A DNA stretch of 64,000 nt, taken from positions 11,917,001 to 11,981,000 of the forward strand of contig OX387202.1 in assembly GCA_947561715.1 (NCBI GenBank), given 5' to 3'. The notes beneath the pieces are model-generated. The model made no database searches. It was not told the origin of the DNA and worked only from the letters and a program-made list of their open reading frames with translations. The position numbers were made by a program, and so were the translations under genes. Positions 18,301 to 49,858 of the stretch are shown here, piece after piece; position 1 is the stretch's first letter; each line of letters starts with the position of its first letter. The DNA comes from Ascidia mentula. Lineage: Eukaryota > Chordata > Ascidiacea > Phlebobranchia > Ascidiidae.

Positions 18301-21300
18301 AGGAACCATTGCCTTCTAATACAGAAGTTTTTCTTTGCACTGATAAAACAGATGAAGTTGAACTGGAACCATTTCTAAGGCGGGCAGTTGACAAGGATCC
18401 GAAAAAGGGTGCCTAGCGTGTTGTGTTTTTAGCAGTTAAATTTTCTTCTATAATCATGTGTTTTGGATGGCATTGTATGTTTAGGAAAATTAAAACAACA
18501 GAAAAATATTTATTAAAATTATTACACCTATTTGCATATCCTCTGAAGTTGGGTTTAAATAAAGTGTTCATGTTTGATGATATTTTGTATCAGACTTTAG
18601 TTAATAATGCAGTAGTGAATACAAAGGTTACAACCTCTTTATATTTATATGCAGGGAATAGAATTTACTGTCTTGCCCACACTGAGAAACTAGCCTTTGA
18701 AGTTGCTAACTCACTGCACAATAACTTAAGGAAGTTACAGAATGATAACTTCACTGTTGTATTACTGTGCTCTTCACCACAACACTTCATAGCATCACTT
18801 TTTTATGAGGTATTTTGCTATATTATTTGGCATACTTTTAGCATTAACATTTGGATTGATTGACAAATATTAGTAATACTTTAAACAAATGTGATGCTAT
18901 ATTTCATTTCAGAATAAGATTAATTATATCATAAAGCATTCTGATGACAACATAAGAGAGTTTTTTGAAAAAAAGATGACTATTCATGACCATCACAAAC
19001 CAGGCAATCCCTCAACCCTACTTGTAACTTCACACAAAGCTGGATTAGGTTTTTTAATTGTGAAATTAATGAGATTTATAGTGCTCAAGTAGATTTTTTT
19101 TTAGGGAAGTCTTTGTATATTTCACGACTCAGAGAAAAACTGCATGATGACTATTTCACTACAACAATAAGATTCCTGGAAAAGGACTGCAATTCTGATT
19201 ATGTGATGAACCATTTACTAAACTCGGGAGCAAAAAACACAGATCCTCAATTTGTGCACTTGGATGTCACACCTGCAGTAAGTCCATGGCTTTTTAGCTG
19301 CCTTTTTTTCAACAAGTATCTTTATTGCTGTAATTCTAAGCATAAATTTCACTGTATAAGCAAAAATTGTAAAAATGTTGTGCCATAGGTAAAGAATGGA
19401 ATTAACAACCTTCTTTTTCATTTGCTTATTCTTGGATCTTGTAAAGACAGCCATGGCTTTGTGTGGCAAAAACATACCTCACATATCTACTGTGTTGAAT
19501 ACACATATCTGGAAAAGGTTTGACTTTTTTATGTTTGTTCCATAAAATGAAAAGCTTTGTGACTCTGTGGTGCCCAAATTGTTAGTTAGTTTCAAACAAA
19601 AATCTTAAACATGGCTTTGTCATTGTGGCGATATCTCTTTATACAAAAAACTTATGTAGGACATTCTGGACAAAGTGTTGCTCCATCTTCCCACAATAAG
19701 ATGCCTCTCACCACTACAACTGGTAGAAAATACAAATTCAAATGACCTTCTGTCAGTGGGAATGGACCAAAAAGAATTTTTAAGTGAAACATTTCAGCGC
19801 CCTTACCAGTATTTGCTGCAGCACAAGCTCCAGCATAATCTTGATGACTTTACCTACAAAACACCAAAGGACAACCCAATGGAATGTTTACACACACTTT
19901 ATAATTTCTGTGGTGTCAAGGATCCATCATGGTCCTTACTAAAGCATTTTGCCAGCTTTTTAAATTGCCAACTAAGCGATTGTGAGAAGTCTGTATTTTG
20001 TGACACAAATTTAACTGGTTCGGATTCCGGTCTTTCTGGCTTTAAAAGCTTTGTTGTAAAATTCATGATTAGAATGTCACAGGACTTTGCTACACCTTCT
20101 TTGGATTCCTCTCCAGAACACAAAGAAGGTGTGTTTGGACAGCATCAGCTAAGAAGAAGCTGGGAGGAAGGAAAACATCCCTATCTCTTCTTTAATGAAG
20201 ATCGGATGTCAATGACTTTTGTCAACTTTATGATTAATCACAAAGGCGATTTAATATCTACAAAAACAAATGAAATACTTGAAAAAAATATCATGCAGAG
20301 AAAACTTCTGAATGGATTGCGATTACAAAGAGTTAACTTCAGACAGAATTTCAATAGTTTGTCAAGAAGTAATAAACTGAAGACACTCTACCAAGTTTTT
20401 GGAATTGAAGGAGACATACAAGATCCTGATCCCACATATGAACTAACAACTGAAAATGTACTAAAAATGCTTGCAATTCATATGAGGTTTAGGTGTGACA
20501 TTCCAGTCATAATCATGGGTGAAACTGGCTGTGGAAAAACAAGAATGGTGGAGTTTATGAGCAAGATAAAAGCAAACAATGCAACTTCAGTTAAAAATAT
20601 TGTTACTGTTACAGTACATGGTGGAATCACAGTCAAAGATATTCAAGAAAAAATTTTAGAAGCCTTGGACCTTGCAAATCAAAACAAGGGAAAGACAGAG
20701 ACCACATTGTTCTTGGATGAGGCCAACACCACAGAAGCAATTTATGCTATTAAAGAATTTGTATGTGATGGAAGTGTTTGTGGAAAGTCAAAACACAGGT
20801 CTTGCTTGAACATTGTTGCTGCTTGCAATCCTTATAGAAAGCACAACAAAGAGGCTATTACAAAAATGGAAAATGCTGGTCTGGGATTCAAGGTAAAAAC
20901 CGATGACACCTCTGATAAACTAGGGGAAATTCCAATGCGCTGGCTTGTATATAGAGTTGTTGCACTTCCACCAAGCATGCATCCCCTTGTGTGGGACTTT
21001 GGCCAACTTGATGAAATGGCAGAAAGAGTTTACATTGAACAAATGGCACATCATGAAACAGTGCGAGAGACTGTTGGATTACAGTCTGAGCGTGACCTCT
21101 TGGTTCACATGTTGTGTACATCCCAAGCATTTATGAGGCAAAATCGACAAGACTGCCTTTTTGTGAGTCTGAGGGATGTTGAACGGTGCCTGAAGTGCTT
21201 TAAATGGTTCTGTAACAACAAAGATTGGCTTTTGGAAGAAATTAAAATCAAACAAACTGATAAAAGCAGTCAGTCAGAAATTTCAGATACTGTTCAATGT

Positions 21301-24300
21301 TTAATACATTCATTTGGAATGTGCTATCATGCAACTTTGACTGACAGATTGGAATATCGAAAAAAGATGTCAGAATGCTTAGCAGATGTTAGAATTAAAA
21401 TGTCTGAATCACAAATTCTTCAAGAGATTGTGGCATGTCAAAACGTATTTCTCAATGAAATACAACTCAAAGACAATATTGCATCAAATGAAGCATTAAG
21501 AGAGAATGTATTTATGATTGTTATGTGTTGTGAATTAAGAATTCCTTTGTTTCTGATAGGAAAACCCGGAAGTTCAAAATCGCTGGCGAAAAGTATAGTT
21601 GCTGATGTCATGCAAGGTTCAAATTCCAACAGTAATGTGTTTCAGAAACTAAAACAAATTCATGTTCTATCATTTCAGTGCAGTCCAATAACAGAGGTCA
21701 GTGGTATTCAGAGCATATTTAAGCAATGTGAAAGTCTTCAGGAGAAACAAGACACCACAAAGTTTGTTGCCGTTGTTGTTTTGGATGAAATTGGTTTGGC
21801 TGAAGATTCACCAAAAATGCCATTAAAAGTTCTACATCCATTATTGGAAGGTGGTGTGAGAGACAGTCAATCATCTTTACAACTTCATGATCGTAACAAA
21901 AACATTTCAAAGCATGTTGGCTTTGTTGGTATTTCCAACTGGGCACTGGATCCAGCTAAGTTAAATAGAGGTCTGTTTGTTCATCGATTAACACCATCAG
22001 AAAGTGAATTAAACCTGACAGCACAAGGCATATTTCCACCTAGTTCGATCAATTATCAGGAAGTTTCCAGCATTGTTCAGGCTGCTACGAAGTCATATTT
22101 GGAAATTAGTGAAAAATGGGATAAGACAACCAGTAAACTAAGCTCTGAAGAAGAAATCTTTAATCGGGAGTTTTTTGGTTTGAGAGACTATTATGGCTTG
22201 CTGAAGATGATTTATGCTGTTTATTGTGATGGTGAAGTCACACCACAGTTTTATGATGTTCTTTATGCAGTGAAGCGCAATTTTGATGGGTCAAAATTAA
22301 TTGATTGCATGCAAATTTTTGTCGACAATTTCAAAACTCTTCGTCCTTGTGAAAATGTTCCAGGTGTGACTTTAAAACAAATTGTGTCCGATAATCTGCA
22401 GTCAAAATTAAACAATGACACCCACTTTGAAAGTCGCTATCTCCTTCTTATGACAGATATCCCTGAAGCTGTGATACTCCTTGGAACCATTATTGACCGA
22501 GATGTTAAATTTGTTTTTGGTTCAAGCTTTTCTCAGGACAATACCTACACTGAAAAGTGTCGTAACATTAACCGCATCAAAATGTGCATGGAAGCTGGAA
22601 GTACAGTTCTCTTGCTAAACCTGAAGGATTTGTATGAATCACTGTATGATGCACTGAACCAACATTATGTTACATTTAAAGGACAGAGATATGTTGACCT
22701 CGGTCTTGGTGGTCACAGGGTGAAGTGCAGAGTTCACAAAAACTTTCGGTTAATAGTAATGGAAGACACTGAAATTGTATACAGGGATTTTCCAATACCA
22801 CTTATCAATAGACTTGAGAAACACTTTTTGACAACAAAATGCCTTCTTTCAACTGAACAAATAACTGATACAAGGCGCCTTGAAACATGGATGGAAGATT
22901 TTTCAACTATTTCTCAACCTCTATATTTGCAAAATTCAGTATATTTTACCAAAAAAGATGTTTTTGTTGGATACACAAATGAAACTGTTGGCTCTGCTAT
23001 CATAACCACCCAAAATAGGAAGAATCCTTATGAAGAAGCCAAGCATCTACTTCTCAGAACAGTAACATGTGATGGTGTATTGCGACTGGCTAAGTCAGGA
23101 CTGAAGCGGGAAGCACCGAACTTGGCGAAAACTTACTTTGAACAACAACAGCACGATAACTTACTTGATTTACTGAAAAGTTTTGTTACACTGAAAACAA
23201 ATGAAGGTATTCTGCAACTTGACATCACATCTTTCTCAAAGATTCTCTCAGAAAATGATCGCATGATCTTGAAACTGTCATTGGAACCACTTGTGGAATC
23301 GATCACCCTGGTTACGTTGCAGCAGTTCAAAACACAAGAAGAATTTTCTGCAAGAGTAGTCAAATTTCTGCATGATGGTCTCTCCGCAAAAGAAAATGTA
23401 GAAGAGATGTATTCAGTAGTTTTACTTATTCAATGTCCGGAAGTTCAGACGACCAATAGTCTTATTGCCTGTGCCAAATATACTGTACAAAATATTCTGT
23501 TGGAAAAGCAATCTGTCGTCAGTGTTGATTATGTCCAATTTATAGTGGCATTTCTTTACACATTGGAACGACGGGGCCCGGAAAACTCAAATAAGAAGAT
23601 GAAAACTTTCATCAGTTCAGATACCTGCAGCTTGTATGTGGATGAACTTTGTGTCACTGCAGATCATCTTGGATCCATAAACATAATTAATAAGTACACT
23701 TTAGGTGAATTATTAAACCATTCAGTACATGAAAAACCCTACATAGTACAAACTGATGTTCGCAGAAATACCACAAACTTTGCAGAACCCGAATTTGCAC
23801 TAGATTTTAAAAAATTGCTTCTTGCCTCACTCCCACTTGCACTTACTAAACTTCAAGCAGTTTTTAAGACAGCACAATCAGATAGGTTTTTGTTGTCTGC
23901 ATTTTTTAGTGATGATGACCCTGTATGTAAGGCATTTGTTCAAGAACTCATTAAATGTGTTGTGAAAATGGCACAATGCAGAGATTCTAAGATGGTGTTG
24001 CAATCTTCTTGGGTAACAAATGTGGCATTTAATTCAGAAGCTCTGCAGGAAGGAGGAAGCTTAAAAAAAACTCTATGGTTGCATTTAAGGAACATTATGT
24101 CCAGTTTGTTGGCCAGCTTTATCAGTGAAGTTAACACCGATCAAAACCTTCTCATTCTGTGTTCATCCAATCAGAATTCATTAGCAACTCACTTAAAGCA
24201 AGTTTGGTTCGACCTGTTTCATGTAAACACAATTTTTTGTGCAACTTGGGATAACCTGGAAAAAGTACATAGATATTTTGTAAGAGGCATAGCTAACTTT

Positions 24301-27300
24301 GCTTGTCAGTTTCCATACAGTCGCAAGGTCTTATCAGTTTTTCAGAAACAATGGGAACTGGTTCAAAATCAGGAAAATTCTGTACAGCTTTTTCATAGCA
24401 AAATAAAAAATATGAGACTAAATCATATTTTAACAAATGCCTTGGAATCACACACTGAGGAAGTATTGAATTGTTTTGTTCATGACATGGTGCATTTACA
24501 TTACAAGTGTGGATCACACAAAAAGCTTGAATTTCAGATGATTCAAAACACTCTAATGGAAATATGGAAGCAAAAACAATATGACCTTGATGTGTCTGTA
24601 ACAAGTTCAAGCAACTTAGTTTCTTTTATGTTTGTTCTCATGAAAATGTTTTCTCTTGAACTAAAACAAGTGGCTTTTATCTTGGAACTTATACCACAAA
24701 TATTAAGTGATGATATTTACAACGAGTTTCTGAAAAGACAAGCTGATACAACAACAATTGTAATACATTTTGGGTTGCTTGAGTTTGCTCTGAAACACAT
24801 TATAGAAATATCTGAAACATTAACCGATGTTTTGCAGTACCAGAAATGGGCAAAGTTAATTGGACAACTTAGACCAACGGCTGAAGCAATTTTGTTGAAC
24901 ACAGAATCTGAATCACTACACAAAACTTGGAAAGCTCTACAATTCGGTGCACTCTTTTCAGAGCACCTTATACCACAAGGGTTAACAGAAGCTACACAGA
25001 AAGGCTACATTAAGGTATTCATGCAACCATCAAAGCTGTTGTGGAAGGGAGCATTGAAAGTTGACTTAAACACTGATACCTACTTAAGATTAATTGTAAA
25101 AACTTTAAATGGTTGTGTCAAAAAGGTTCGACTGATGTACTTGGTTGACTTCCAAGACAGTATGTGCAAATTTTGCAACAAAACTGTCAGTGATCCAGTT
25201 GTTCTTCCTTGCAAACATTTTATGTGCTGCAAATGCACTCGCCTTATCACGATAGACCGACAATGTCCAATATGTAGAAAAGTGGTTCATGAAAACTTTG
25301 AGTTTAAACCCACTACCCTCACTGCAAACCAAGCCAAAGACATGGAAGTTCTGACTGGAAATTGTACAAGCTTTTTTATGGAGTATCTGTCTGTACTTTG
25401 CTTTCCCGCTTCTTCAACAAGTTGTAGAGAAAATGAAATCACACAACTGCTATTCAGTCTTGTATTTCAGAACAAGGATCAAAAAGATAAGTCTTCATTA
25501 CAGTCATCATTTTTGTATTCTGCAGACACAGTCAGATCCTACATCTTGCAGCTTCTTCTTCGCCACAATGAGGCCATAAAACATGAACTTGAAAATCATT
25601 TTACCACAAATCCCAATGATTCAGCAAATTTTATGGATTTGATGATAGTCTACGTTCACTGCAAAGAAGACATGTTGCATAAAAATATTTCAAGTCAACT
25701 AATGCCACAACTGCTTCAGGAACAGATTGCTCAGTTGCAGGAAGGTCTGGTTGTCAGTCAGTTGCAACAGTTGGATTTAGTGGCAAACTTGCAGTGTATT
25801 ATCAACAACCTTGTTGAATTAGTTTACCAAGAAATAAACAACAATGAGACTAAAGAGTTTGTGTCTGATATAATCGATGCCCTGTTAAATATGGATGAGG
25901 AAATTATAAAAGTGTACTTCATAAAATGTTTCTGCAGGCGGTATGGAATTAGCTTTTTTTCAAATTTGTTTGCACATGATCAGTTGAAAAATTTCATTCC
26001 TGGATACCTATACAATTGTTTTAAGTATCAGCCAACTGATATGTTGTTAGTGGCTGGTGAAGTTGTGGTGTCAACTAAGAAACATCTTGACCAAATAGAT
26101 GAACACAAAACCATTCAAGTATTTAAACAAATTTGTAACCAAAATGTCTCCCAATTGCAAGTTGTGTTGGGAAGTTTGTCTTGGGCAGTTTTAAATGTGA
26201 ACACAAGCAAACAAAATTTTGAAGTCACAGAGTCTTTACTGGACCACCTCTACCATCATTCTTCAATCAAAAAATTGATTTACTCTCTTTCAAAAAAGAT
26301 GTTGAGTCTAATACCAAATGTGTTTAGTTTGCAAGACTTTACTCACCAAATAGTTGCCAATTTGTTCATAAATGCTGCAATTGTGACAGGATTTTCAAGT
26401 GGTTTGCTAGTTGGTGAAGTATACAATTTAGTTAAAGACCACTTGCATATTGCTGAAAAATTTCTTCCAACAATGCCCCAATCATCTTATTTTGATGTAA
26501 AAGATTTTGTTGAAAAGTGGATAGATCCAGCCCATAAAGTACCCCCTAAAAAGTATTTTTGCCCAAATGGACACCTTTATGTAGTGGGTAATTGTGGCAA
26601 TGTTATTCCTACAAATGCCGTCTGTCCTGACTGCAAAGCACCCATTGGGGGAAAGGATTATGGCAAATTACAGCCTGGAAATACAGCTGGTGATATTTCA
26701 GAAGCAAGCCAAGCTGGTTATAAATTGCCTTCTCCCGAACAAAGAGGCTTGGAAGCTACTCCAGAAAGGAAATGCAACAAACTAACTGTTTGTGTTATTC
26801 GTTTTCTTCTGCATTCTCAATTACTCCTCAATACATCAGAATTAGGCATTCAAAGGTTGGTAGCTTTTGACATCTTGTGTTCTTCCATATTCTGGTATGG
26901 CCATAAATTTGTTTGTTTGCAGCTTACTTAAGGTAAACGGAGAGGAAGAAGCTAGGACTCTACTTCTTTCACATCTTAATAAGGATTTTGAACAGTTTCA
27001 TAACTCAATTGGAAGAAGTCTGGAAGACTCTGCACTTCTTTTGCACTATATTTTTAAACAGATTGCTGATTGCAAGGTACACAAATCTCTACATGCAGAT
27101 TGTGAGACATCTACTTTTATTATGCAATGACAAACTTTTTTTCTATTTAGACAAATGAACATAGTGTAGATGCCAACTTTGACTCAATTAAAGGAAGGCA
27201 AGTGTGGGAAACTGAGTTTCATAGCTGTTATTTGCAGCCAGTTTTTGCACATGTTGAACAAAATATTCATGATTCGTGGAATGTTATCTTCAATGCAAGG

Positions 27301-31740: not shown

Positions 31741-33045
31741 ATGTGCAGCTACAAAGTTGCTGACTTTGGGCTAGCCGGTACTGGGCGAAAATTGATTGAG
31801 ATTGCTGAAAATGAAATGCCTGGTCTTATGTCGTTGCGTCAAATGCATGGAAAAACAAAACCGCTTTCAGGAGCAAGGATTGCTGGTTGTCTGCATATGA
31901 CAATTCAAACCGCCGTCCTTATTGAAACACTTGTGGAGTTGGGAGCAGAGATTCGTTGGTGCTCTAGTGATATTTTTTCGACCCAAGACGAAGCTGCAGC
32001 TGCTATAGCTGCTGCTGGTTTACCTGTGTTTGCTTGGAAAGGTGAAACTGATGAAGAATATGTTTGGTGCATGGAGCAAACCCTTATGTTTTCAAGGGAT
32101 AGGCCACTTAATATGATATTGGATGATGGAGCTGATTTAACGAAATTCGTTCATGAAAAATATCCTTATCTAACAGAGGGCATTAAAGGGTCATCAGAGC
32201 AAACAACGACTGGTGTGCAAGTATTAAATGCTATGGTTAGAGATGGGACCCTAACTTGTCCTGCAATTGACATAAATGATTCTGTGACAAAGAGCAAATT
32301 TGATAATCTTTATGGATGCCGTGAGTCAATTGTGGATGGAATTCGTAGAGCAACACATATAATGTTGGCAGGAAAAGTTGCCATGGTGGCAGGGTTTGGA
32401 GACGTAGGAAAAGGGTGTGCACAAGCTTTAAGAGGTTCTGGATGCAGAGTTTTAATCACGGAAGTTGACCCGATCGTGGCACTTCAAGCTGCAATGGAAG
32501 GCTATGAAGTTCTTACAGCAAAACACGCTGCACCAAAAGCCAATTTAGTGATTACAACAACTGCATGCACTTCTGTTATCGACAAATCGACTTTTGAATT
32601 GCTTCCAGACAATGCAATAGTTTCCAACATGGGTCAGTTTCAAACAGAAATTGATGTTAATTGGCTCAAAGAAAATGCACTGAAAAAAGTTTCCATTAAA
32701 CCACAAGTTGATCGATACTTACTTCCAAACGGAAATCATATCATCCTTCTTGCTGATGGTCACTTGGTCAATCTTGGCTGTGCCATGGGACATCCAAGTT
32801 TTGTCATGAGTACTTCATTTACCAACCAAGTGCTGGCTCAGATTGAACTTTGGACAAACAATGTTAACTTCAGCAAATACACTAAAGGGAAATTGTACAC
32901 TTTGCCGAAGCATTTGGATGAAGAGGTGGCACGACTTCACCTGGATAAGATTGGTGTTGAATTAACCAAGTTGACAGACAAACAATCAAAATATCTTGGT
33001 ATTCCTGTATATGGGCCATTCAAGCCAGAAAGGTACAGGTACTAG
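31741..33045 (+). CDS. Adenosylhomocysteinase-like protein 1, intronless
   Basis: The 434-residue single exon is close to the usual 432 residues of animal AHCY and aligns end to end. AHCY splits S-adenosylhomocysteine to adenosine and homocysteine in the methyl cycle, using tightly bound NAD. Visible are CLHMT with His52, DDGADL with Asp129, the K184-D188-N189 cluster and Cys193 in the [11 protein letters not shown] region, the Rossmann loop GFGDVGKG at 219-226, GHPSFVMS with His351, and the C-terminal KPERYRY. Two positions differ: residue 154 (human Glu156) is Gln in SSEQTTTG, and residue 299 (human His301) is Gln in NMGQF. Both contact substrate or take part in catalysis in characterised enzymes, so activity is uncertain. 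No introns occur, unlike the neighbouring host genes, which suggests retroposition. An AATAAA lies at 33361. Confidence 0.9.
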
Positions 33046-33889: not shown

Positions 33890-34990
33890 CACAGCCCAAA
33901 ATCCTTTTGTGGGAAATACTATGCGAATTGATAAGCCACTTCAACACCCTGTCAAACATAAAATTATAACAAGCAGTTATCCTGTTAGTTGTCGCCCCAG
34001 GCGTTTATCTCCCAAGATGTTAAAGGTGATAAATGAATAATTTGATGATCTTGAACGAAAAGGTGTTGTACGTCCTATTAGTTCTCCCTGGTCTTCTGCC
34101 ATTCATGTAGTTCCAAAACCAAACGATAAATGGCGAATTTCGGTTATTATAGAAGGTTAAACCTAATAACGGAGCCTGATAAATATCCTATTCCATTTTT
34201 GACTAATTTTGTAAATAATTTAAAAGGAGCAACAATTTTTTCCAAGATCTCAAAAATGCGTATTTTCAAATTGCACTTGAACAAGAATCTATCCCAAAAA
34301 CAGCTGTTGTTTTTCCACATAGATCCATGGAATATTTGCGTTTGTCATTTGGTTTGTGTAATGCGCCCCAGACTTTTCAAAGTTTTATGGATCAAGTGTT
34401 GGGTGGTCTACCGTTTGTTTACGTTTATCTTGATGATATCCTAATTTCTAGCAGATCAGAAACTGAGCATAAACAGCACTTAAGACAGGTTTTGAAACGT
34501 TTGTCTGATTATGGATTAGAAATTAATTTAGAGAAAAGTGATTTTGGTGTCGCTGATGTTGTTTTTCTCGGTCATAAAATCTCTTCAGATGGCTTTCGTC
34601 CTCTTAAAAACAAAGTTGAGGTGATTCAAAACTTTCCACGACCGGCAACATTAAAAGAGTTAAAACGATATTTGGGCATGATTCAATTTTACAGACGTTT
34701 TATTCCACATTGCGCTGAACACTTGCAGTTACTTACCAACATGTTGAGGAAAGTTGTGCGAAGGGTATGTGTTGAAATGGTCGCCTGAGGCTATAGTCGC
34801 TTTTGACAAGACTTTATTGCACTATCTGAATGGAAGATTTTCTTTGTTTTGTGACAGTAGTAATTTTGCCATGGGTGCAGTACTCGATCAACTTGATAAT
34901 GGTGAATGGTGTCCTCTTGATTTTCATTTTTTTCAAAACATTTTCCAAGAACAAAGAAATTTTACGAGAAAAACAAAAAGCAAAGCACGT
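33890..34990 (+). mobile_element. Fossil Ty3/gypsy retroelement fragment (reverse transcriptase and start of RNase H)
   Basis: Translated pieces show the typical gypsy reverse transcriptase order: a segment ending VVPKPNDKWRI, the LSFGLCNAPQTFQ block, the YLDDILI catalytic box, FLGH, and YRRFIPHCAE, followed by the beginning of the RNase H region. Only this part of pol is present. I see no gag, integrase or LTRs. The copy is broken, with several interruptions, and looks old. Confidence 0.85.
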
Positions 34991-38510: not shown

Positions 38511-38579
38511 GTTTGTCGCTCGCTTCTGTTGTGTCGAGTGAAATTGAAAGTAGCTACAATTATTGCAGAAGAATCGAGC

Positions 38580-39887
38580 ATGATGTGCAGCTACAAAGTT
38601 GCTGACTTTGGGCTGGCCAATGCTGGGCGGAAAATGATTGAAATGGCTGAAAATGAAATGCCTGGTCTTATGTCGTTGCGTCAAATGCATGGAAAAACAA
38701 AACCGCTTTCAGGAGCAAGGATTGCTGGTTGTCTGCATATGACAATTCAAACCGCCGTCCTCATTGAAACACTTGTGGAGTTGGGAGCAGAGATTCGTTG
38801 GTGCTCTAGTGATATTTTTTCAACCCAAGACGAAGCTGCAGCTGCTATAGCTGCTGCTGGTTTACCTGTGTTTGCTTGGAAAGGTGAAACTGATGAAAAA
38901 TATGTTTGGTGCATGGAGCAAACCCTTATGTTTTCAGGGGATAGGCCACTTAATATGATATTGGATGATGGAGCTGATTTGACGAAATTTATTCATGAAA
39001 ACTATCCTCATCTGACGGAAGGCATTAAAGGGTCATCAGAGCAAACAACGTCTGGAGTGCAAGTGTTGAATGCCATGGTTAAAGATGGGACCCTAACTTT
39101 TCCCGCAATAGAAATAAATAATTCTGTGACAAAGAGCAAATTTGATAATCGTTATGGATGCCGTGAGTCAATTGTGGATGGAATTCGTAGAGCCACACAA
39201 ACAATGTTGGCAGGAAAAGTTGCCATGGTAGCAGGGTTTGGAGACGTAGGAAAAGGGTGTGCACAAGCTTTAAGAGGTTCTGGATGCAGAGTTTTAATCA
39301 CGGAAGTTGACCCGATTGTGGCACTTCAAGCTGCAATGGAAGGCTATGAAGTTCTTGCTGCAAAACACGCTGCACCAAAAGCCAATTTGGTGATTACAAC
39401 AACTGCATGCACTTCTGTTATCGACAAATGGATTTTTGAATTGCTTCCAGACAATGCAATAGTTTCCAACATGGGTCAGTTTCAAACAGAAATTGATGTT
39501 AATTGGCTCAAAGAAAATGCACTTGAAAAGGTTTCCGTTAAACCACAAGTTGATCAATACTTGCTTCCAAATGGAAAACATATCATCCTTCTTTCTGATG
39601 GTCACTTGGTCAATCTTGGCTGTGCCATAGGACATCCCAATTTTGTCATGAGTATTTCATTTACCAACCAAGTGCTGGCTCAAATTGAACTTTGGACAAA
39701 CAATGTTAACTTCAGCAAGTACACTAAAGGGAAAGTGTACACTTTGTCTAAACATTTGGATGAAGAGGTGGCGCGACTTCACCTGGATAAGATTGGTGTT
39801 GAATTAACCAAGTTGACAGACGAACAATCAAAATATCTTGGTATTCCTGTGTATGGGCCATTTAAACCAGACATTTATAGGTATTAG
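38580..39887 (+). CDS. Adenosylhomocysteinase-like protein 2, intronless
   Basis: The 435-residue single exon starts at ATG 38580. The frame is open 17 codons further up to 38529, but homology begins at [10 protein letters not shown], so 38580 or 38583 is preferred. It is highly similar to gene 1 and has the same family motifs: [24 protein letters not shown] and GFGDVGKG. It shares the two unusual glutamines, SSEQTTSG (human Glu156) and NMGQF (human His301). It also differs in conserved blocks: [10 protein letters not shown] instead of [10 protein letters not shown], and PDIYRY at the end. 5' and 3' flanks are not similar to those of gene 1. Intact frame despite many substitutions suggests it was maintained for some time. 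The expected role is the methyl cycle, but catalysis is uncertain. Confidence 0.88.
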
Positions 39888-41435: not shown

Positions 41436-41552
41436 TTTCCTAAAAGTCATTCATGTTAGCATGCTTCAGAGTTTTCGTCATTTATGGCGAAAATACGCAA
41501 GGAGAAAAACAAAACAGGGGAGCCACCAAATCTTCATTCACACGGAAATGTT

Positions 41553-41822
41553 ACCACCCTCATTCTGGCAGAATTCTGGCAGAATAATTTTGCAAATTTG
41601 CCACATTCTACAAGGTACAACAGGCATTTACTCAAAAATTGTTTTTTTTTGGATTAGAATCAAATTACAGAGATGAGCAAGCAGATCAAACCTCAAAAAA
41701 CATTTAAACAACATTTTCCGCAGCTGTATCAATCAAAAAAATCGCGAATTAAAAAAATCGCCTGGTTTTGCGATTCAGCATAATGGCGGCATGCGAAAAA
41801 CTAGTCTAATACAAAGAATTCT
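41553..41822 (+). repeat. Left terminal inverted repeat of the foldback element
   Basis: Matches the reverse complement of the right end with only a few differences, including a single A/G change in the CAACAGGCATTTACTC region and small poly-T/poly-A length changes. Its inner part, with GGCATGCGAAAAACTAG, is a diverged version of the end of the 205-bp unit, so the array probably grew out of the terminal repeat. Confidence 0.85.
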
Positions 41823-44119
41823 GCTCGGCGTTCTGGCAATAGGTGCCAATATTGACCAATATCAAGAGAACGGAAATTTAATTCTCTACAACATGCAATT
41901 AACAAATTTGAAATTAAGGTGCCGGATGACCTTCAAATCGCCGATTGAAGACGACCCGCTTTGAGCGAATCAGCAGCGTAATGGCGTAATGTCGGCATGC
42001 GAAAAACTTCCCTATTAAAACAATTCTGCTCGGCGTTCTGGCAATAGGTGCCAATATTGACCAATATCAAGAGAACGGAAATTTAATTCTCTACAACATG
42101 CAATTAACAAATTTGAAATTAAGGTGCCGGATGACCTTCAAATCGCCGATTGAAGACGACCCGCTTTGAGCGAATCAGCAGCGTAATGGCGTAATGTCGG
42201 CATGCGAAAAACTTCCCTATTAAAACAATTCTGCTCGGCGTTCTCGCAATAGGTGCCAATATTGACCAATATCAAGAGAACGGAAATTTAATTCTCTACG
42301 ACATGCAATTAACAAATTTGAAATTAAGGTGCCGGATGACCTTCAAATCGCCGATTGAAGACGACCCGCTTTGAGCGAATCAGTAGCGTAATGGCGTAAT
42401 GTCGGCATGCGAAAAACTTCCCTATTAAAACAATTCTGCTCGGCGTTCTCGCAATAGGTGCCAATATTGACCAATATCAAGAGAACGGAAATTTAATTCT
42501 CTACAACATGCAATTAACAAATTTGAAATTAAGGTGCCGGATGACCTTCAAATCGCCGATTGAAGACGACCCGCTTTGAGCGAATCAGCAGCGTAATGGC
42601 GTAATGCCGGCATGCGAAAAACTTCCCTATTAAAACAATTCTGCTCGGCGTTCTGGCAATAGGTGCCAATATTGACCAATATCAAGAGAACGGAAATTTA
42701 ATTCTCTACAATATGCAATTAACAAATTTGAAATTAAGGTGCCGGATGACCTTCAAATCGCCGATTGAAGACGACCCGCTTTGAGCGAATCAGCAGCGTA
42801 ATGGCGTAATGTCGGCATGCGAAAAACTTCCCTATTAAAACAATTCTGCTCGGCGTTCTCGCAATAGGTGCCAATATTGACCAATATCAAGAGAACGGAA
42901 ATTTAATTCTCTACAACATGCAATTAACAAATTTGAAATTAAGGTGCCGGATGACCTTCAAATCGCCGATTGAAGACGACCCGCTTTGAGCGAATCAGCA
43001 GCGTAATGGCGTAATGTCGGCATGCGAAAAACTTCCCTATTAAAACAATTCTGCTCGGCGTTCTCGCAATAGGTGCCAATATTGACCAATATCAAGAGAA
43101 CGGAAATTTAATTCTCTACAACATGCAATTAACAAATTTGAAATTAAGGTGCCGGATGACCTTCAAATCGCCGATTGAAGACGACCCGCTTTGAGCGATT
43201 TAGCAGCGTAATGGCGTAATGTCGGCATGCGAAAAACTTCCCTATTAAAACAATTCTGCTCGGCGTTCTCGCAATAGGTGCCAATATTGACCAATATCAA
43301 GAGAACGGAAATTTAATTCTCTACAACATGCAATTAACAAATTTGAAATTAAGGTGCCGGATGACCTTCAAATCGCCGATTGAAGACGACCCGCTTTGAG
43401 CGAATCAGCAGCGTAATGGCGTAATGTCGGCATGCGAAAAACTTCCCTATTAAAACAATTCTGCTCGGCGTTCTGGCAATAGGTGCCAATATTGACCAAT
43501 ATCAAGAGAACGGAAATTTAATTCTCTACAACATGCAAATTAAGGTGCCGGATGACCTTCAAATCGCCGATTGAAGACGACCCGCTTTGAGCGAATCAGC
43601 AGCGTAATGGCGTAATGTCGGCATGCGAAAAACTTCCCTATTAAAACAATTCTGCTCGGCGTTCTCGCAATAGGTGCCAATATTGACCAATATCAAGAGA
43701 ACGGAAATTTAATTCTCTACAACATGCAATTAACAAATTTGAAATTAAGGTGCCGGATGACCTTCAAATCGCCGATTGAAGACGACCCGCTTTGAGCGAA
43801 TCAGCAGCGTAATGGCGTAATGTCGGCATGCGAAAAACTTCCCTATTAAAACAATTCTGCTCGGCGTTCTCGCAATAGGTGCCAATATTGACCAATATCA
43901 AGAGAACGGAAATTTAATTCTCTACAACATGCAATTAACAAATTTGAAATTAAGGTGCCGGATGACCTTCAAATCGCCGATTGAAGACGACCCGCTTTGA
44001 GCGAATCAGCAGCGTAATGGCGTAATGTCGGCATGCGAAAAACTTCCCTATTAAAACAATTCTGCTCGGCGTTCTCGCAATAGGTGCCAATATTGACCAA
44101 TATCAAGAGAACGGAAATT
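41823..44119 (+). repeat. Left satellite array, 205-bp unit, about 11 copies
   Basis: The marker GCTCGGCGTTCT recurs at 41823, 42028, 42233, 42438, 42643, 42848, 43053, 43258, 43463, 43654, 43859 and 44064. The period is exactly 205 bp except for one 191-bp unit with a 14-bp deletion near 43540. The last unit is cut after about 56 bp. Units are nearly identical, with a G/C variant in GTTCT(G/C)GCAAT. Each unit contains an 8-bp doublet GCGTAATGGCGTAATG. Confidence 0.95.
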
Positions 44120-45490
44120 TATTTATTGTTTCCTAATGCATATTTTGCTATATTTATGTGTAGCTGATGGATTGTTTTCTTCATTTCTTTGTCATGTGCT
44201 GTTCAGATAAAATGGCAAATGGAACAAAATAAAAAGGTATGTAAGATGCCCAATGCTTTATGTTGGTTTATTACATAAGTTACACACTTACTAAAATATG
44301 TTTATTGGTGTAATAACAACTTATTTATGTGTTGCATTATTTTTTGGGGAAAACAGACCTGTACAGTAAAACCTGCTGAATGCATGAACCAAGTGTAGCA
44401 CAGTCTGGACTGAAGGACCAAACTTGATTACACCATAAGCCTTCTAAATTTATAACTTTGGCAGTATGCAAGTACAACATGTGTTCAATCATGTACATTT
44501 GCACATATCAGCAAACTTGGCAATGATACACCACTTTATTTGTAAAAAATTGTATTTGTTAAATTCCGGGGCCGGGCCACGTAGCAGCCTTCGACATGCT
44601 ACAAAATGTTGATTTGCGGACTGCAGTTTGTACACCCTTGGTGTAAACAAATACAAAACATTTTTGCTACATGTTTAGATGATGGATTGCTTTCTACATT
44701 TCTTTTTCATGTGCTCTTTGGATAAAATGGCAACAAATTTTAGAGGTATGTGACATATATAACGCTAAATACTATTTTTTCCAATACACACAAACATATT
44801 TATTTACTGTTTATCCTGTGACATCTGTTGCATAATTTATTTCTGTGACAAAATACTGTAAAAAAAATATGCTCTATTTTCTGTGCAGGTCGTGATTCAT
44901 TTCTTCACTGTTCAGTTCGAAAAAAAAAGGAAAAGTTGAATTGTGATGGTTACTTTTGAGGGAAAAAAAAATGAAAATGTAGTGTAATTCATACTACACC
45001 TGACAAATTCCTGCAAATGTGTCATTGATAGGGGAGACAGGAGATAATAGGAGGGAGGTTATTAAAAAATTTTCATGTTAGGTACCACGAATCCATACGA
45101 GTTGATAAACCCTTCGGTATCTGAGATCAAATCCTAATAGAATGCAACAGTACAGTCAAACGATAACGCGTGAAATATGTCCACATCAACGTCAATGCGT
45201 CATAAGGGACAAACAAAAAGAAAGGCAATCTTCGACCAAAACGAATTTCAATGCCAAGACCAAACTTTATTTTATGAAAATAGGACTAAAGACCGCATAT
45301 CAGCAACTCTATTAAAATAGTTTTGCCCGCGGGGATTGCCCGTCTTGTACTCCTGCGTCATAGAGATTCTCAGTTTCGTCACAAGGCAACCGGTGATGCA
45401 TTGGGGTCAATTTTCTGGTTGAATGAGCAAGAAGTCACATGGTATAGCGATTTTCAGCGTGTTAGGTGCAGTTTTAGTGCATTTTTTGTT
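44120..45490. other. Unique core of the foldback element
   Basis: AT-rich and without significant coding potential. It contains two diverged direct repeats of about 95 bp, near 44146-44245 and 44660-44752, sharing GATGGATTG, TTTCTT or CTACATTTCTTT, CATGTGCT and GATAAAATGGCAA. The right part, 45320-45480, is richer in GC. No family was recognised. Confidence 0.6.
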
Positions 45491-48400
45491 TTAATAGGGA
45501 AGTTTTTCGCATGCCGACATTACGCCATTACGCTGCTGATTCGCTCAAAGCGGGTCGTCTTCAATCGGCGATTTGAAGGTCATCCGGCACCTTAATTTCA
45601 AATTTGTTAATTGCATGTTGTAGAGAATTAAATTTCCGTTCTCTTGATATTGGTCAATATTGGCACCTATTGCGAGAACGCCGAGCAGAATTGTTTTAGT
45701 AGGGAAGTTTTTCGCATGCCGACATTACGCCATTACGCTGCTGATTCGCTCAAAGCGGGTCGTCTTCAATCGGCGATTTGAAGGTCATCCGGCACTTTAA
45801 TTTCAAATTTGTTAATTGCATGTTGTAGAGAATTAAATTTCCGTTCTCTTGATATTGGTCAATATTGGCACCTATTGCGAGAACGCCGAGCAGAATTGTT
45901 TTAGTAGGGAAGTTTTTCGCATGCCGACATTACGCCATTACGCTGCTGATTCGCTCAAAGCGGGTCGTCTTCAATCGGCGATTTGAAGGTCATCCGGCAC
46001 CTTAATTTCAAATTTGTTAATTGCATGTTGTAGAGAATTAAATTTCCGTTCTCTTGATATTGGTCAATATTGGCACCTATTGCGAGAACGCCGAGCAGAA
46101 TTGTTTTAGTAGGGAAGTTTTTCGCATGCCGACATTACGCCATTACGCTGCTGATTCGCTCAAAGCGGGTCGTCTTCAATCGGCGATTTGAAGGTCATCC
46201 GGCACTTTAATTTCAAATTTGTTAATTGCATGTTGTAGAGAATTAAATTTCCGTTCTCTTGATATTGGTCAATATTGGCACCTATTGCGAGAACGCCGAG
46301 CAGAATTGTTTTAGTAGGGAAGTTTTTCGCATGCCGACATCACGCCATCACGCTGCTGATTCGCTCAAAGCGGGTCGTCTTCAATCGGCGATTTGAAGGT
46401 CATCCGGCACCTTAATTTCAAATTTGTTAATTGCATGTTGTAGAGAATTAAATTTCCGTTCTCTTGATATTGGTCAATATTGGCACCTATTGCGAGAACG
46501 CCGAGCAGAATTGTTTTAGTAGGGAAGTTTTTCGCATGCCGACATTACGCCATTACGCTGCTGATTCGCTCAAAGCGGGTCGTCTTCAATCGGCGATTTG
46601 AAGGTCATCCGGCACCTTAATTTCAAATTTGTTAATTGCATGTTGTAGAGAATTAAATTTCCGTTCTCTTGATATTGGTCAATATTGGCACCTATTGCGA
46701 GAACGCCGAGCAGAATTGTTTTAGTAGGGAAGTTTTTCGCATGCCGACATTACGCCATTACGCTGCTGATTCGCTCAAAGCGGGTCGTCTTCAATCGGCG
46801 ATTTGAAGGTCATCCGGCACTTTAATTTCAAATTTGTTAATTGCATGTTGTAGAGAATTAAATTTCCGTTCTCTTGATATTGGTCAATATTGGCACCTAT
46901 TGCGAGAACGCCGAGCAGAATTGTTTTAGTAGGGAAGTTTTTCGCATGCCGACATTACGCCATTACGCTGCTGATTCGCTCAAAGCGGGTCGTCTTCAAT
47001 CGGCGATTTGAAGGTCATCCGGCACCTTAATTTCAAATTTGTTAATTGCATGTTGTAGAGAATTAAATTTCCGTTCTCTTGATATTGGTCAATATTGGCA
47101 CCTATTGCGAGAACGCCGAGCAGAATTGTTTTAGTAGGGAAGTTTTTCGCATGCCGACATTACGCCATTACGCTGCTGATTCGCTCAAAGCGGGTCGTCT
47201 TCAATCGGCGATTTGAAGGTCATCCGGCACTTTAATTTCAAATTTGTTAATTGCATGTTGTAGAGAATTAAATTTCCGTTCTCTTGATATTGGTCAATAT
47301 TGGCACCTATTGCGAGAACGCCGAGCAGAATTGTTTTAGTAGGGAAGTTTTTCGCATGCCGACATCACGCCATCACGCTGCTGATTCGCTCAAAGCGGGT
47401 CGTCTTCAATCGGCGATTTGAAGGTCATCCGGCACCTTAATTTCAAATTTGTTAATTGCATGTTGTAGAGAATTAAATTTCCGTTCTCTTGATATTGGTC
47501 AATATTGGCACCTATTGCGAGAACGCCGAGCAGAATTGTTTTAGTAGGGAAGTTTTTCGCATGCCGACATTACGCCATTACGCTGCTGATTCGCTCAAAG
47601 CGGGTCGTCTTCAATCGGCGATTTGAAGGTCATCCGGCACTTTAATTTCAAATTTGTTAATTGCATGTTGTAGAGAATTAAATTTCCGTTCTCTTGATAT
47701 TGGTCAATATTGGCACCTATTGCGAGAACGCCGAGCAGGATTGTTTTAGTAGGGAAGTTTTTCGCATGCCGACATTACGCCATTACGCTGCTGATTCGCT
47801 CAAAGCGGGTCGTCTTCAATCGGCGATTTGAAGGTCATCCGGCACTTTAATTTCAAATTTGTTAATTGCATGTTGTAGAGAATTAAATTTCCGTTCTCTT
47901 GATATTGGTCAATATTGGCACCTATTGCGAGAACGCCGAGCAGAATTGTTTTAGTAGGGAAGTTTTTCGCATGCCGACATTACGCCATTACGCTGCTGAT
48001 TCGCTCAAAGCGGGTCGTCTTCAATCGGCGATTTGAAGGTCATCCGGCACCTTAATTTCAAATTTGTTAATTGCATGTTGTAGAGAATTAAATTTCCGTT
48101 CTCTTGATATTGGTCAATATTGGCACCTATTGCGAGAACGCCGAGCAGGATTGTTTTAGTAGGGAAGTTTTTCGCATGCCGACATTACGCCATTACGCTG
48201 CTGATTCGCTCAAAGCGGGTCGTCTTCAATCGGCGATTTGAAGGTCATCCGGCACTTTAATTTCAAATTTGTTAATTGCATGTTGTAGAGAATTAAATTT
48301 CCGTTCTCTTGATATTGGTCAATATTGGCACCTATTGCGAGAACGCCGAGCAGAATTGTTTTAGTAGGGAAGTTTTTCGCATGCCGACATTACGCCATTA

Positions 48401-49589
48401 CGCTGCTGATTCGCTCAAAGCGGGTCGTCTTCAATCGGCGATTTGAAGGTCATCCGGCACCTTAATTTCAAATTTGTTAATTGCATGTTGTAGAGAATTA
48501 AATTTCCGTTCTCTTGATATTGGTCAATATTGGCACCTATTGCGAGAACGCCGAGCAGAATTGTTTTAGTAGGGAAGTTTTTCGCATGCCGACATTACGC
48601 CATTACGCTGCTGATTCGCTCAAAGCGGGTCGTCTTCAATCGGCGATTTGAAGGTCATCCGGCACTTTAATTTCAAATTTGTTAATTGCATGTTGTAGAG
48701 AATTAAATTTCCGTTCTCTTGATATTGGTCAATATTGGCACCTATTGCGAGAACGCCGAGCAGAATTGTTTTAGTAGGGAAGTTTTTCGCATGCCGACAT
48801 TACGCCATTACGCTGCTGATTCGCTCAAAGCGGGTCGTCTTCAATCGGCGATTTGAAGGTCATCCGGCACTTTAATTTCAAATTTGTTAATTGCATGTTG
48901 TAGAGAATTAAATTTCCGTTCTCTTGATATTGGTCAATATTGGCACCTATTGCGAGAACGCCGAGCAGAATTGTTTTAGTAGGGAAGTTTTTCGCATGCC
49001 GACATTACGCCATTACGCTGCTGATTCGCTCAAAGCGGGTCGTCTTCAATCGGCGATTTGAAGGTCATCCGGCACCTTAATTTCAAATTTGTTAATTGCA
49101 TGTTGTAGAGAATTAAATTTCCGTTCTCTTGATATTGGTCAATATTGGCACCTATTGCGAGAACGCCGAGCAGAATTGTTTTAGTAGGGAAGTTTTTCGC
49201 ATGCCGACATTACGCCATTACGCTGCTGATTCGCTCAAAGCGGGTCGTCTTCAATCGGCGATTTGAAGGTCATCCGGCACTTTAATTTCAAATTTGTTAA
49301 TTGCATGTTGTAGAGAATTAAATTTCCGTTCTCTTGATATTGGTCAATATTGGCACCTATTGCGAGAACGCCGAGCAGAATTGTTTTAGTAGGGAAGTTT
49401 TTCGCATGCCGACATTACGCCATTACGCTGCTGATTCGCTCAAAGCGGGTCGTCTTCAATCGGCGATTTGAAGGTCATCCGGCACCTTAATTTCAAATTT
49501 GTTAATTGCATGTTGTAGAGAATTAAATTTCCGTTCTCTTGATATTGGTCAATATTGGCACCTATTGCGAGAACGCCGAGCAGAATTCT
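45491..49589 (-). repeat. Right satellite array, 205-bp unit, 20 copies
   Basis: The reverse-complement marker CGCCGAGC recurs 20 times from 45679 to 49574 with a period of exactly 205 bp and no indel. The array is the same unit as the left one in opposite orientation. Variant bases show a higher-order repeat: the paired CACGCCATCACG changes occur 1,025 bp (five units) apart at 46341 and 47366, and CACC/CACT states follow a five-unit pattern. The copies are nearly identical, so expansion was recent or they are being homogenised. Confidence 0.95.
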
Positions 49590-49850
49590 TTGTATTAGAC
49601 TAGTTTTTCGCATGCCGCCATTATGCTGAATCGCAAAACCAGGCGATTTTTTTTATTCGCGATTTTTTTGATTGATACAGCTGCGGAAAATGTTGTTTAA
49701 ATGTTTTTTGAGGTTTGATCTGCTTGCTCATCTCTGTAATTTGATTCTAATCCAAAAAAAACAATTTTTGAGTAAATGTCTGTTGTACCTTGTAGAATGT
49801 GGCAAATTTGCAAAATTATTCTGCCAGAATTCTGCCAGAATGAGGGTGGT
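49590..49850 (-). repeat. Right terminal inverted repeat of the foldback element
   Basis: Reverse complement of the left end, running from ACTAGTTTTTCGCATGCC at the array side to GAGGGTGGT at the outer edge, immediately followed by the target duplication GAAATGTT. Confidence 0.85.
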
Positions 49851-49858
49851 GAAATGTT

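Follow-up and report, generated by a model that had tools for sequence, protein, structure and literature searches.

Satellite arrays as the arms of a foldback DNA transposon family in the ascidian Ascidia mentula

Whether transposons create satellite DNA or merely pick it up is debated (PMC10218199), and satellite-armed transposons are already known, namely Tetris in Drosophila virilis and Rehavkus-1_TC in Tribolium castaneum (here and below, published systems are described from excerpts of the papers cited). Rehavkus elements, which occur in insects and annelids, are similar to Mutator-like elements (MULEs) and have a PHD finger, 9-bp target-site duplications, and a minisatellite ahead of the 3' terminal repeat (PMC6446971). 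Rehavkus-1_TC is 9.5 kb long and carries the 164-bp satellite TCsat23 in its inverted termini, mostly as five and eight monomers (PMC10218199). Each inverted end of Tetris (TIR-220) consists of a terminal domain and a variable number of ~220-bp tandem repeats, and the duplications are 8-10 bp; the arrays expand inside the element, and a 37-bp stretch of the terminal domain is ~80% like the repeat (PMC4079207). Here, we describe an element with satellite arms in a 64,000-nucleotide stretch of Ascidia mentula (the window; contig OX387202.1, C70:11917001-11981000 of a 196-Mb genome). It is not the first case of its kind. Very probably, it belongs to a young cut-and-paste family of Mutator/Rehavkus type, of which it is a non-autonomous copy shortened by internal deletion; the arrays of the family would grow in the manner proposed below.

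The element spans window positions 41553-49850, exactly as given by an earlier reading made from the letters alone (the sequence-only reading); it starts with ACCACCCTC, finishes with GAGGGTGGT, and is bordered at 41545-41552 and 49851-49858 by a perfect 8-bp target-site duplication, GAAATGTT. Comparison of the two ends places the distal terminal inverted repeats (the transposon ends) at 41553-41780 (+ strand) and 49623-49850 (- strand). Facing arrays of one 205-bp unit follow, which Tandem Repeats Finder delimits at 41781-44121 (+ strand; 11.5 copies, 97% matches) and, inverted, at 45486-49623 (- strand; 20.2 copies, 99% matches, with divergence lowest at a spacing of five units). Array lengths throughout are as assembled. 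The core between the arrays is ~1.36 kb (44125-45491); its edges were set by BLAST, so that they overlap the right array, as called by Tandem Repeats Finder, by a few bases. Without gaps, the inverted repeat extends for at most 1904 nt per arm, at 99% complementarity, and the 280-bp ends match one another at 98.9%. Coordinates, Tandem Repeats Finder, and the inverted-repeat search all bear out the element that had been proposed, with its inverted ends, perfect 8-bp duplication, facing 205-bp arrays, and core. The family as a whole shows the long inverted ends, internal tandem repeats, and variable middle that define the foldback structural class.

The window copy, E15, is one of many in a young, dispersed family. 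Searching the genome with its left end gave 39 full-query matches (39 scored of 319 candidates), and 23 places were taken for comparison (E01-E23). A 40-base piece of the terminal repeat occurs at 121 places with no more than three mismatches (64 forward, 57 reverse; the reversed control gave 0). Positions are listed individually for 100 of these and not for the other 21; several listed places with two mismatches carry identical changes, and are perhaps an older subfamily. The corresponding count for a 40-base piece of the 205-bp unit is 1422 (control, 0), with 705 of them inside the 23 compared pieces. Both ends are found in inverted orientation in 22 of the 23 copies. The left end of E04 lies outside the compared piece; the pattern search puts it at ~C1:9010657, which by arithmetic gives this copy a length of ~20.9 kb. 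Sizes in the family range from 2.9 to 26.4 kb, and 42 of 45 ends align over the complete 280 bp at 97.2%-100%; E19, E21, and E23 are ~11 bp shorter at one end, as seen in the sequence. One copy, E03 (C1:8015222-8019543; L011), has no core, so that its arrays abut and the whole is a near-pure inverted satellite of 4.3 kb.

Other copies with target-site duplications, whose existence was among the checks suggested for the original proposal, are present. Perfect duplications are 8 bp long in 16 of the 22 two-ended copies and 9 bp long in four (E01, E08, E12, and E17), together 20 of 22, although that of E08 sits in a GT run and is ambiguous. Empty sites were a second such check. E05 is inserted within a relative of its own core, and its flanks, when joined with one copy of the duplication, align over the insertion point to the cores of 18 compared copies (its own included) at 89%-96% identity. 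For E05, a copy other than that of the window, the unoccupied site is thus visible in paralogues.

A third check was for an autonomous relative, and a probable one is present. Copy E13 (C69:11163300-11189706; 26.4 kb) has both ends and a perfect GTTTATAC duplication, and its arms, of 44 and 33 full units, flank a 10-kb inner region with an uninterrupted, stop-free frame of 1871 codons (P0001). Elsewhere in the 23 compared pieces, there are only fragments of this frame, those in E04 and E11 being the longest. In P0001, Pfam recognises a ubiquitin carboxyl-terminal hydrolase domain (7.7e-22) and a PHD finger slightly under the cut-off (7.3e-5); the PHD finger (PF00628) is above the cut-off in the related proteins P0003 (4e-7) and P0002 (5.7e-6). 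A search of solved structures matched P0001 to USP36 (3.4e-9), to a PHD-bearing demethylase (4.2e-6), and, at just 0.037, to the SUMO-type protease SENP8, and NCBIfam gave no match for it. In an alignment of P0001 with three relatives, in which two of the four sequences are near-identical, D656, D730, C776-x-x-H779, and E992 are invariant, and so are the residues that are presumably catalytic in the ubiquitin protease (C1387 and H1605) and in a weak Ulp1-like part (H1257 and C1320); the Asp of the Ulp1-like part is replaced by Asn in the two near-identical sequences. D656, D730, C776-x-x-H779, and E992 may correspond to the conserved D, D, C-x-x-H, and E motifs of the MULE catalytic domain, and, in our own reading of this alignment, the region of D656, D730, and E992 may be a DDE-like transposase.

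It should be noted that some of the evidence runs counter to this assignment. Pfam transposase profiles, that of MULEs included, did not match P0001 (E≤1) or P0002 and P0003 (E≤10), a null result to be read knowing that HMMER filters discard weak matches, and the DDE motif is read from four aligned sequences that include a near-identical pair. The family might instead belong to another superfamily with 8-bp duplications (P/Galileo, hAT, and Zisupton-like elements all make them) that evolved the foldback form independently. The predominance of 8-bp duplications and the missing MULE match fit such an origin, and Galileo, which is P-type, also has long, internally repetitive ends; 9-bp duplications in 4 of 22 copies (one in the GT run) do not fit it. 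MULE target duplications are ~8-11 bp, a range that takes in both lengths found here. A further pointer away from the other superfamilies is the candidate motif N-N-x-T-Q-G-I-x-E-x-H-F-x-x-L-K, which may resemble the third catalytic site of MULEs, and the PHD finger combined with one long frame is as tabulated for Rehavkus (PMC6446971). We therefore consider membership in another superfamily unlikely and keep the Mutator/Rehavkus assignment, in a qualified form: the family is termed Rehavkus-like rather than filed as a member of Rehavkus, because the 9-bp duplication length of that group is found in only 4 of 22 copies and 8 bp in 16 of 22. The PHD finger does agree with Rehavkus (in P0002 and P0003 outright, in P0001 just below the cut-off).

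The smaller copies look like deletion derivatives. Among the alignments listed for the 22 cores compared, cores match the E13 inner region on one side or on both, or match copies that do so, and those of E16, E18, and E20 contain an inverted duplication of one side. The core of the window copy aligns to one side of that region, and its deletion junction is the same, to the base, in E02, E06, E10, E14, and E17. Given that the junction is common to the base and that each copy has its own duplication (imperfect in E10), the six most likely descend from one deleted copy and moved afterwards.

These copies also bear on how fast the arrays change. Across the family, arms hold 1-75 full units. Across the six junction-sharing copies and E05, core differences number 2 to 20 in 926-1363 sites, and the arms range from 1 to ~76 units. 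For example, the cores of E06 and E17 have two differences in 1363 positions, and their arrays have 14.4 and 34.0 units (~48 in all) and 5.3 and 1.0 units (~6), respectively. Divergence was measured on 695 full units from 45 arms, 646 of which are exactly 205 bp. Mean unit divergence, with the median in brackets, is 1.0% (0.98%) within an arm, 1.6% (1.46%) between the arms of a copy, and 2.0% (1.48%) between copies, and the nearest neighbour of a unit lies in the same arm in 43% of cases, versus 4.5% expected. Because within-arm divergence is the lowest and nearest neighbours are so often in the same arm, homogenisation acts mostly within the arm, and conversion between arms is not the main force. 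The process is not uniform: two results weigh against the simplest version of it, namely that the between-arm and between-copy medians are almost equal, and that in E16 and E20 units vary inside an arm as much as between arms. Units at the edges diverge more (outer 1.4%, inner 1.6%, interior 1.0%, in 24 arrays of at least eight units), and some arrays have higher-order patterns (e.g., of five units in the right arm of E15 and four in the right arm of E06), with none in others. Edge divergence and higher-order patterns are the outcome expected of unequal exchange or slippage.

Taken together, the most probable course of events would be as follows. A giant transposase from the full copy E13 (26.4 kb), presumably P0001, would recognise the ends of ~230 bp in trans, including those of the window copy, and mobilise the copies by cut and paste; integration duplicates 8, or at times 9, bp. 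The 205-bp array sits immediately inside the terminal repeat in each arm and would lengthen and shorten by whole units and small blocks, largely independently per arm and far faster than the flanking DNA mutates, most likely via unequal exchange or replication slippage. Some observations are less favourable to this scheme. The duplication of E10 matches at six of eight positions, and E18 has none; and the array lengths on which the scheme draws are those of the assembly.

The genome also contains distant relatives with other arrays. Among 25 of 339 candidates scored in a genome search with P0001 were E13, the fragments in E04 and E11, and 22 matches at 30%-37% identity, 18 of the latter stop-free in the matched stretch (short second pieces of the same places uncounted). 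One relative, L042, is 32% identical to P0001 and has a 206-bp array from ~380 bp past its stop; a second, L045, has a 206-bp array too. A search with the L042 array gave four frames flanked left and right by arrays of opposing orientation, at C72:4753482, C69:20731251, C72:12108550, and C69:18937131 (two stops interrupt the last one). L047 has a 181-bp array, and the frames at C2:14353663 and C71:5413513 are likewise flanked by such arrays, one on either side and oppositely oriented. Matches to L046 lie ~181 bp apart beside the frames at C67:6100072, C69:9935541, C67:9221684, and C70:928599, with one side shown. For L043 and L044, no array was found in the ~1 kb past the frame. The 205-bp and 206-bp units have nothing in common beyond short words, and the two 181-bp units are related (84% over 133 bp). 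Satellite in inverted termini, as in Rehavkus, is thus a feature of the window family and also of two relatives. The L042 and L043 proteins are 51% identical, and L043 and L044, which are near-identical, have a ratio of replacing to silent substitution rates (dN/dS) of ~0.45, which says little given that it comes from only 16 codon changes (six silent, 10 replacing). A search of viral contigs with the protein alignment gave 209 pattern matches, none of which was confirmed.

Some features of these relatives are worth recording in their own right. On the sense strand, 3' of the transposase frame, L042-L045 have a 37-position stretch (L042:6876-6912, L043:629-665 on the minus strand, L044:6247-6283, and L045:341-377) that is invariant at 36 of 37 positions, although the L042 and L043 proteins are as different as just noted. 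By eye, two crossing stems are possible (CCACTAC/GTAGTGG and TGCCGG/CCGGCA), and the stretch possibly folds as a pseudoknot. A 28-base piece of it occurs at 34 places in the genome with at most three mismatches (control, 0), and it is absent from the compared copies of the window family. Rfam gave no match at L042 6800-7000, and its sole match over the window and six loci is a tRNA in L046. There, an insert (L046:529-1060) missing from four related places, whose flanking matches overlap by 15 bp, contains a tRNA-Thr-like gene, and portions of the insert form tandem copies with a 366-bp period at several places (e.g., C73:4823151-4827506). The frame in the analysed piece of L042 opens with 16 copies of a 57-bp repeat (L042:1-913; 19 residues each), possibly a coding minisatellite, and the N-terminal parts of L042 and L043 have a conserved, by eye membrane-like, hydrophobic stretch before the PHD finger, which is odd in a transposase.

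How the 205-bp unit originated is a separate question. The sequence-only reading saw a diverged unit in the inner part of the terminal repeat, and this holds for a piece of it. Positions 226-250 of the terminal repeat (window 41778-41802, + strand) align with the end of the unit at 23 of 25 bases (score 40, versus no more than 31 in 300 shuffles), and the genome search aligns query positions 226-298 (41778-41850, extending into the array) to array units at 86%-89%. For a whole unit it does not hold, as positions 1-200 score 20-21 against the unit, within the range of shuffles (up to 30). The array thus starts from a diverged fragment of a unit at the margin of the terminal repeat, and it is plausible that the unit arose there.

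The same reading proposed that a transposon had seeded a satellite here. The locus is indeed a foldback DNA transposon whose arms are satellite arrays; a free-standing array was not found among the candidates scored (19 of 122 and 24 of 152 in two array searches). With one exception, every scored array lies in a compared copy, lies within ~2 kb of a listed terminal repeat, or forms an inverted pair (C1:26799341-26811715 and C2:2513375-2516998). In the exception, C70:15146328-15152149, the array is in one orientation, and its terminal repeat may be among the 21 unlisted places of the 121. No array is clearly outside the family in these sets, and the seeding of an independent satellite from the element is only partly supported.

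In the opposite direction, the satellite could have existed in the host beforehand and been captured by an ordinary transposon that now spreads it. This would be compatible with the finding that just ~25 bp of the terminal repeat proper is significantly unit-like, which makes descent of the whole unit from the terminal repeat uncertain, and with the scope of the array searches, in which 19 of 122 and 24 of 152 candidates were scored. We regard it as quite improbable all the same, because none of the scored arrays is clearly outside the family and because three dissimilar units (205, 206, and 181 bp; a fourth gene group has a unit related to the 181-bp one) adjoin the same kind of gene, which repeated capture explains poorly. 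That the inverted arrays are an assembly artefact, made of collapsed or mirrored satellite contigs, is highly improbable: exact copy numbers in such arrays are often wrong, but inverted ends recur at 22 of 23 places, 20 of 22 copies have perfect duplications of differing sequence, and the two arms of a copy are sometimes unlike in unit variants and in higher-order pattern. Growth of the array inside a Rehavkus-like transposon remains our preferred explanation.

That units of unlike sequence have similar periods suggests a role for their length, perhaps in spacing nucleosomes or in repeated binding. More speculatively, and with more doubt than belief, a clade of giant transposons might use satellite arrays as a standard working part, with units of dissimilar sequence kept near two lengths (~205 and ~181 bp) beside a transposase that has a chromatin reader of its own (the PHD finger) and SUMO- and ubiquitin-protease-like domains. 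The arrays would then serve as platforms for repeated binding or for nucleosome phasing, selection would act on their length, and new satellites would arise repeatedly in each family. One prediction, that the stretch of the unit shared with the terminal repeat is a binding site and so less variable, failed (rank 147 of 205 rotations), which counts against platforms of this kind.

Elsewhere in the window, two adenosylhomocysteinase-like frames, each apparently one exon, lie on the same strand (31741-33045 and 38529-39887), with a reverse-transcriptase fragment between them (34327-34788). A frame of 2418 codons (19675-26931) has AAA, RING, and RZ-type zinc finger matches, and is presumably similar to RNF213.

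A single genome thus offers young copies with the same junction and near-identical cores whose arms vary from 1 to 75 full units, together with a probable autonomous copy and with distant relatives that have other units next to a gene of the same kind. Such copies would let the rate, step size, and homogenisation of a satellite be measured directly, and the genome is a good place to watch a satellite grow inside a transposon. It also raises the question of why a transposase should have ubiquitin- and SUMO-protease-like domains.

Among described systems, Galileo of Drosophila has similarly long, internally repetitive, foldback-like inverted ends, but its transposase is of the P-element type with a THAP domain. 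The MULEs of a 2026 arthropod survey likewise have a transposase frame between terminal inverted repeats; the complete ones are 1.9-10.0 kb long, their frames encode 313-1136 amino acids, and their ends measure 13-1193 bp, as against 26.4 kb and 1871 codons in E13 (PMC13359780). Tm1 of root-knot nematodes, a Phantom-type Mutator element, shares composite inverted ends with variable tandem repeats, autonomous and deleted copies, and 9-bp duplications (9 bp also in 4 of 22 copies here), but differs in its ~14-bp repeats, its 496-amino-acid transposase, its FLYWCH finger, and its clear MULE match (PMC3169594). No transposase joined to both Ulp1 and ubiquitin-protease domains was seen in a search of open-licence papers.

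Two systems are closer. The 25-bp partial unit at the edge of our terminal repeat is comparable to the 37-bp similarity in Tetris, for which three complete copies and no autonomous one are described, whereas the window family has the probable autonomous E13; TIR-220 stands alone in 39 contigs, in contrast to the lack of free-standing arrays among our scored candidates (PMC4079207; likened by description). With Rehavkus, the family shares a PHD finger in the transposase, one frame, long inverted ends, and satellite in the termini (PMC10218199, PMC6446971). Unlike Rehavkus-1_TC, it has up to 75 full units per arm, copies of up to 26.4 kb, and mostly 8-bp rather than 9-bp duplications, as well as a ubiquitin-protease domain and a Ulp1-like part that go unmentioned in the excerpts of the Rehavkus descriptions (PMC10218199, PMC6446971), to which it was likened by description rather than sequence. 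Rehavkus-1_TC and Tetris are the closest known systems, and the window family is a larger and better preserved variant of their plan.

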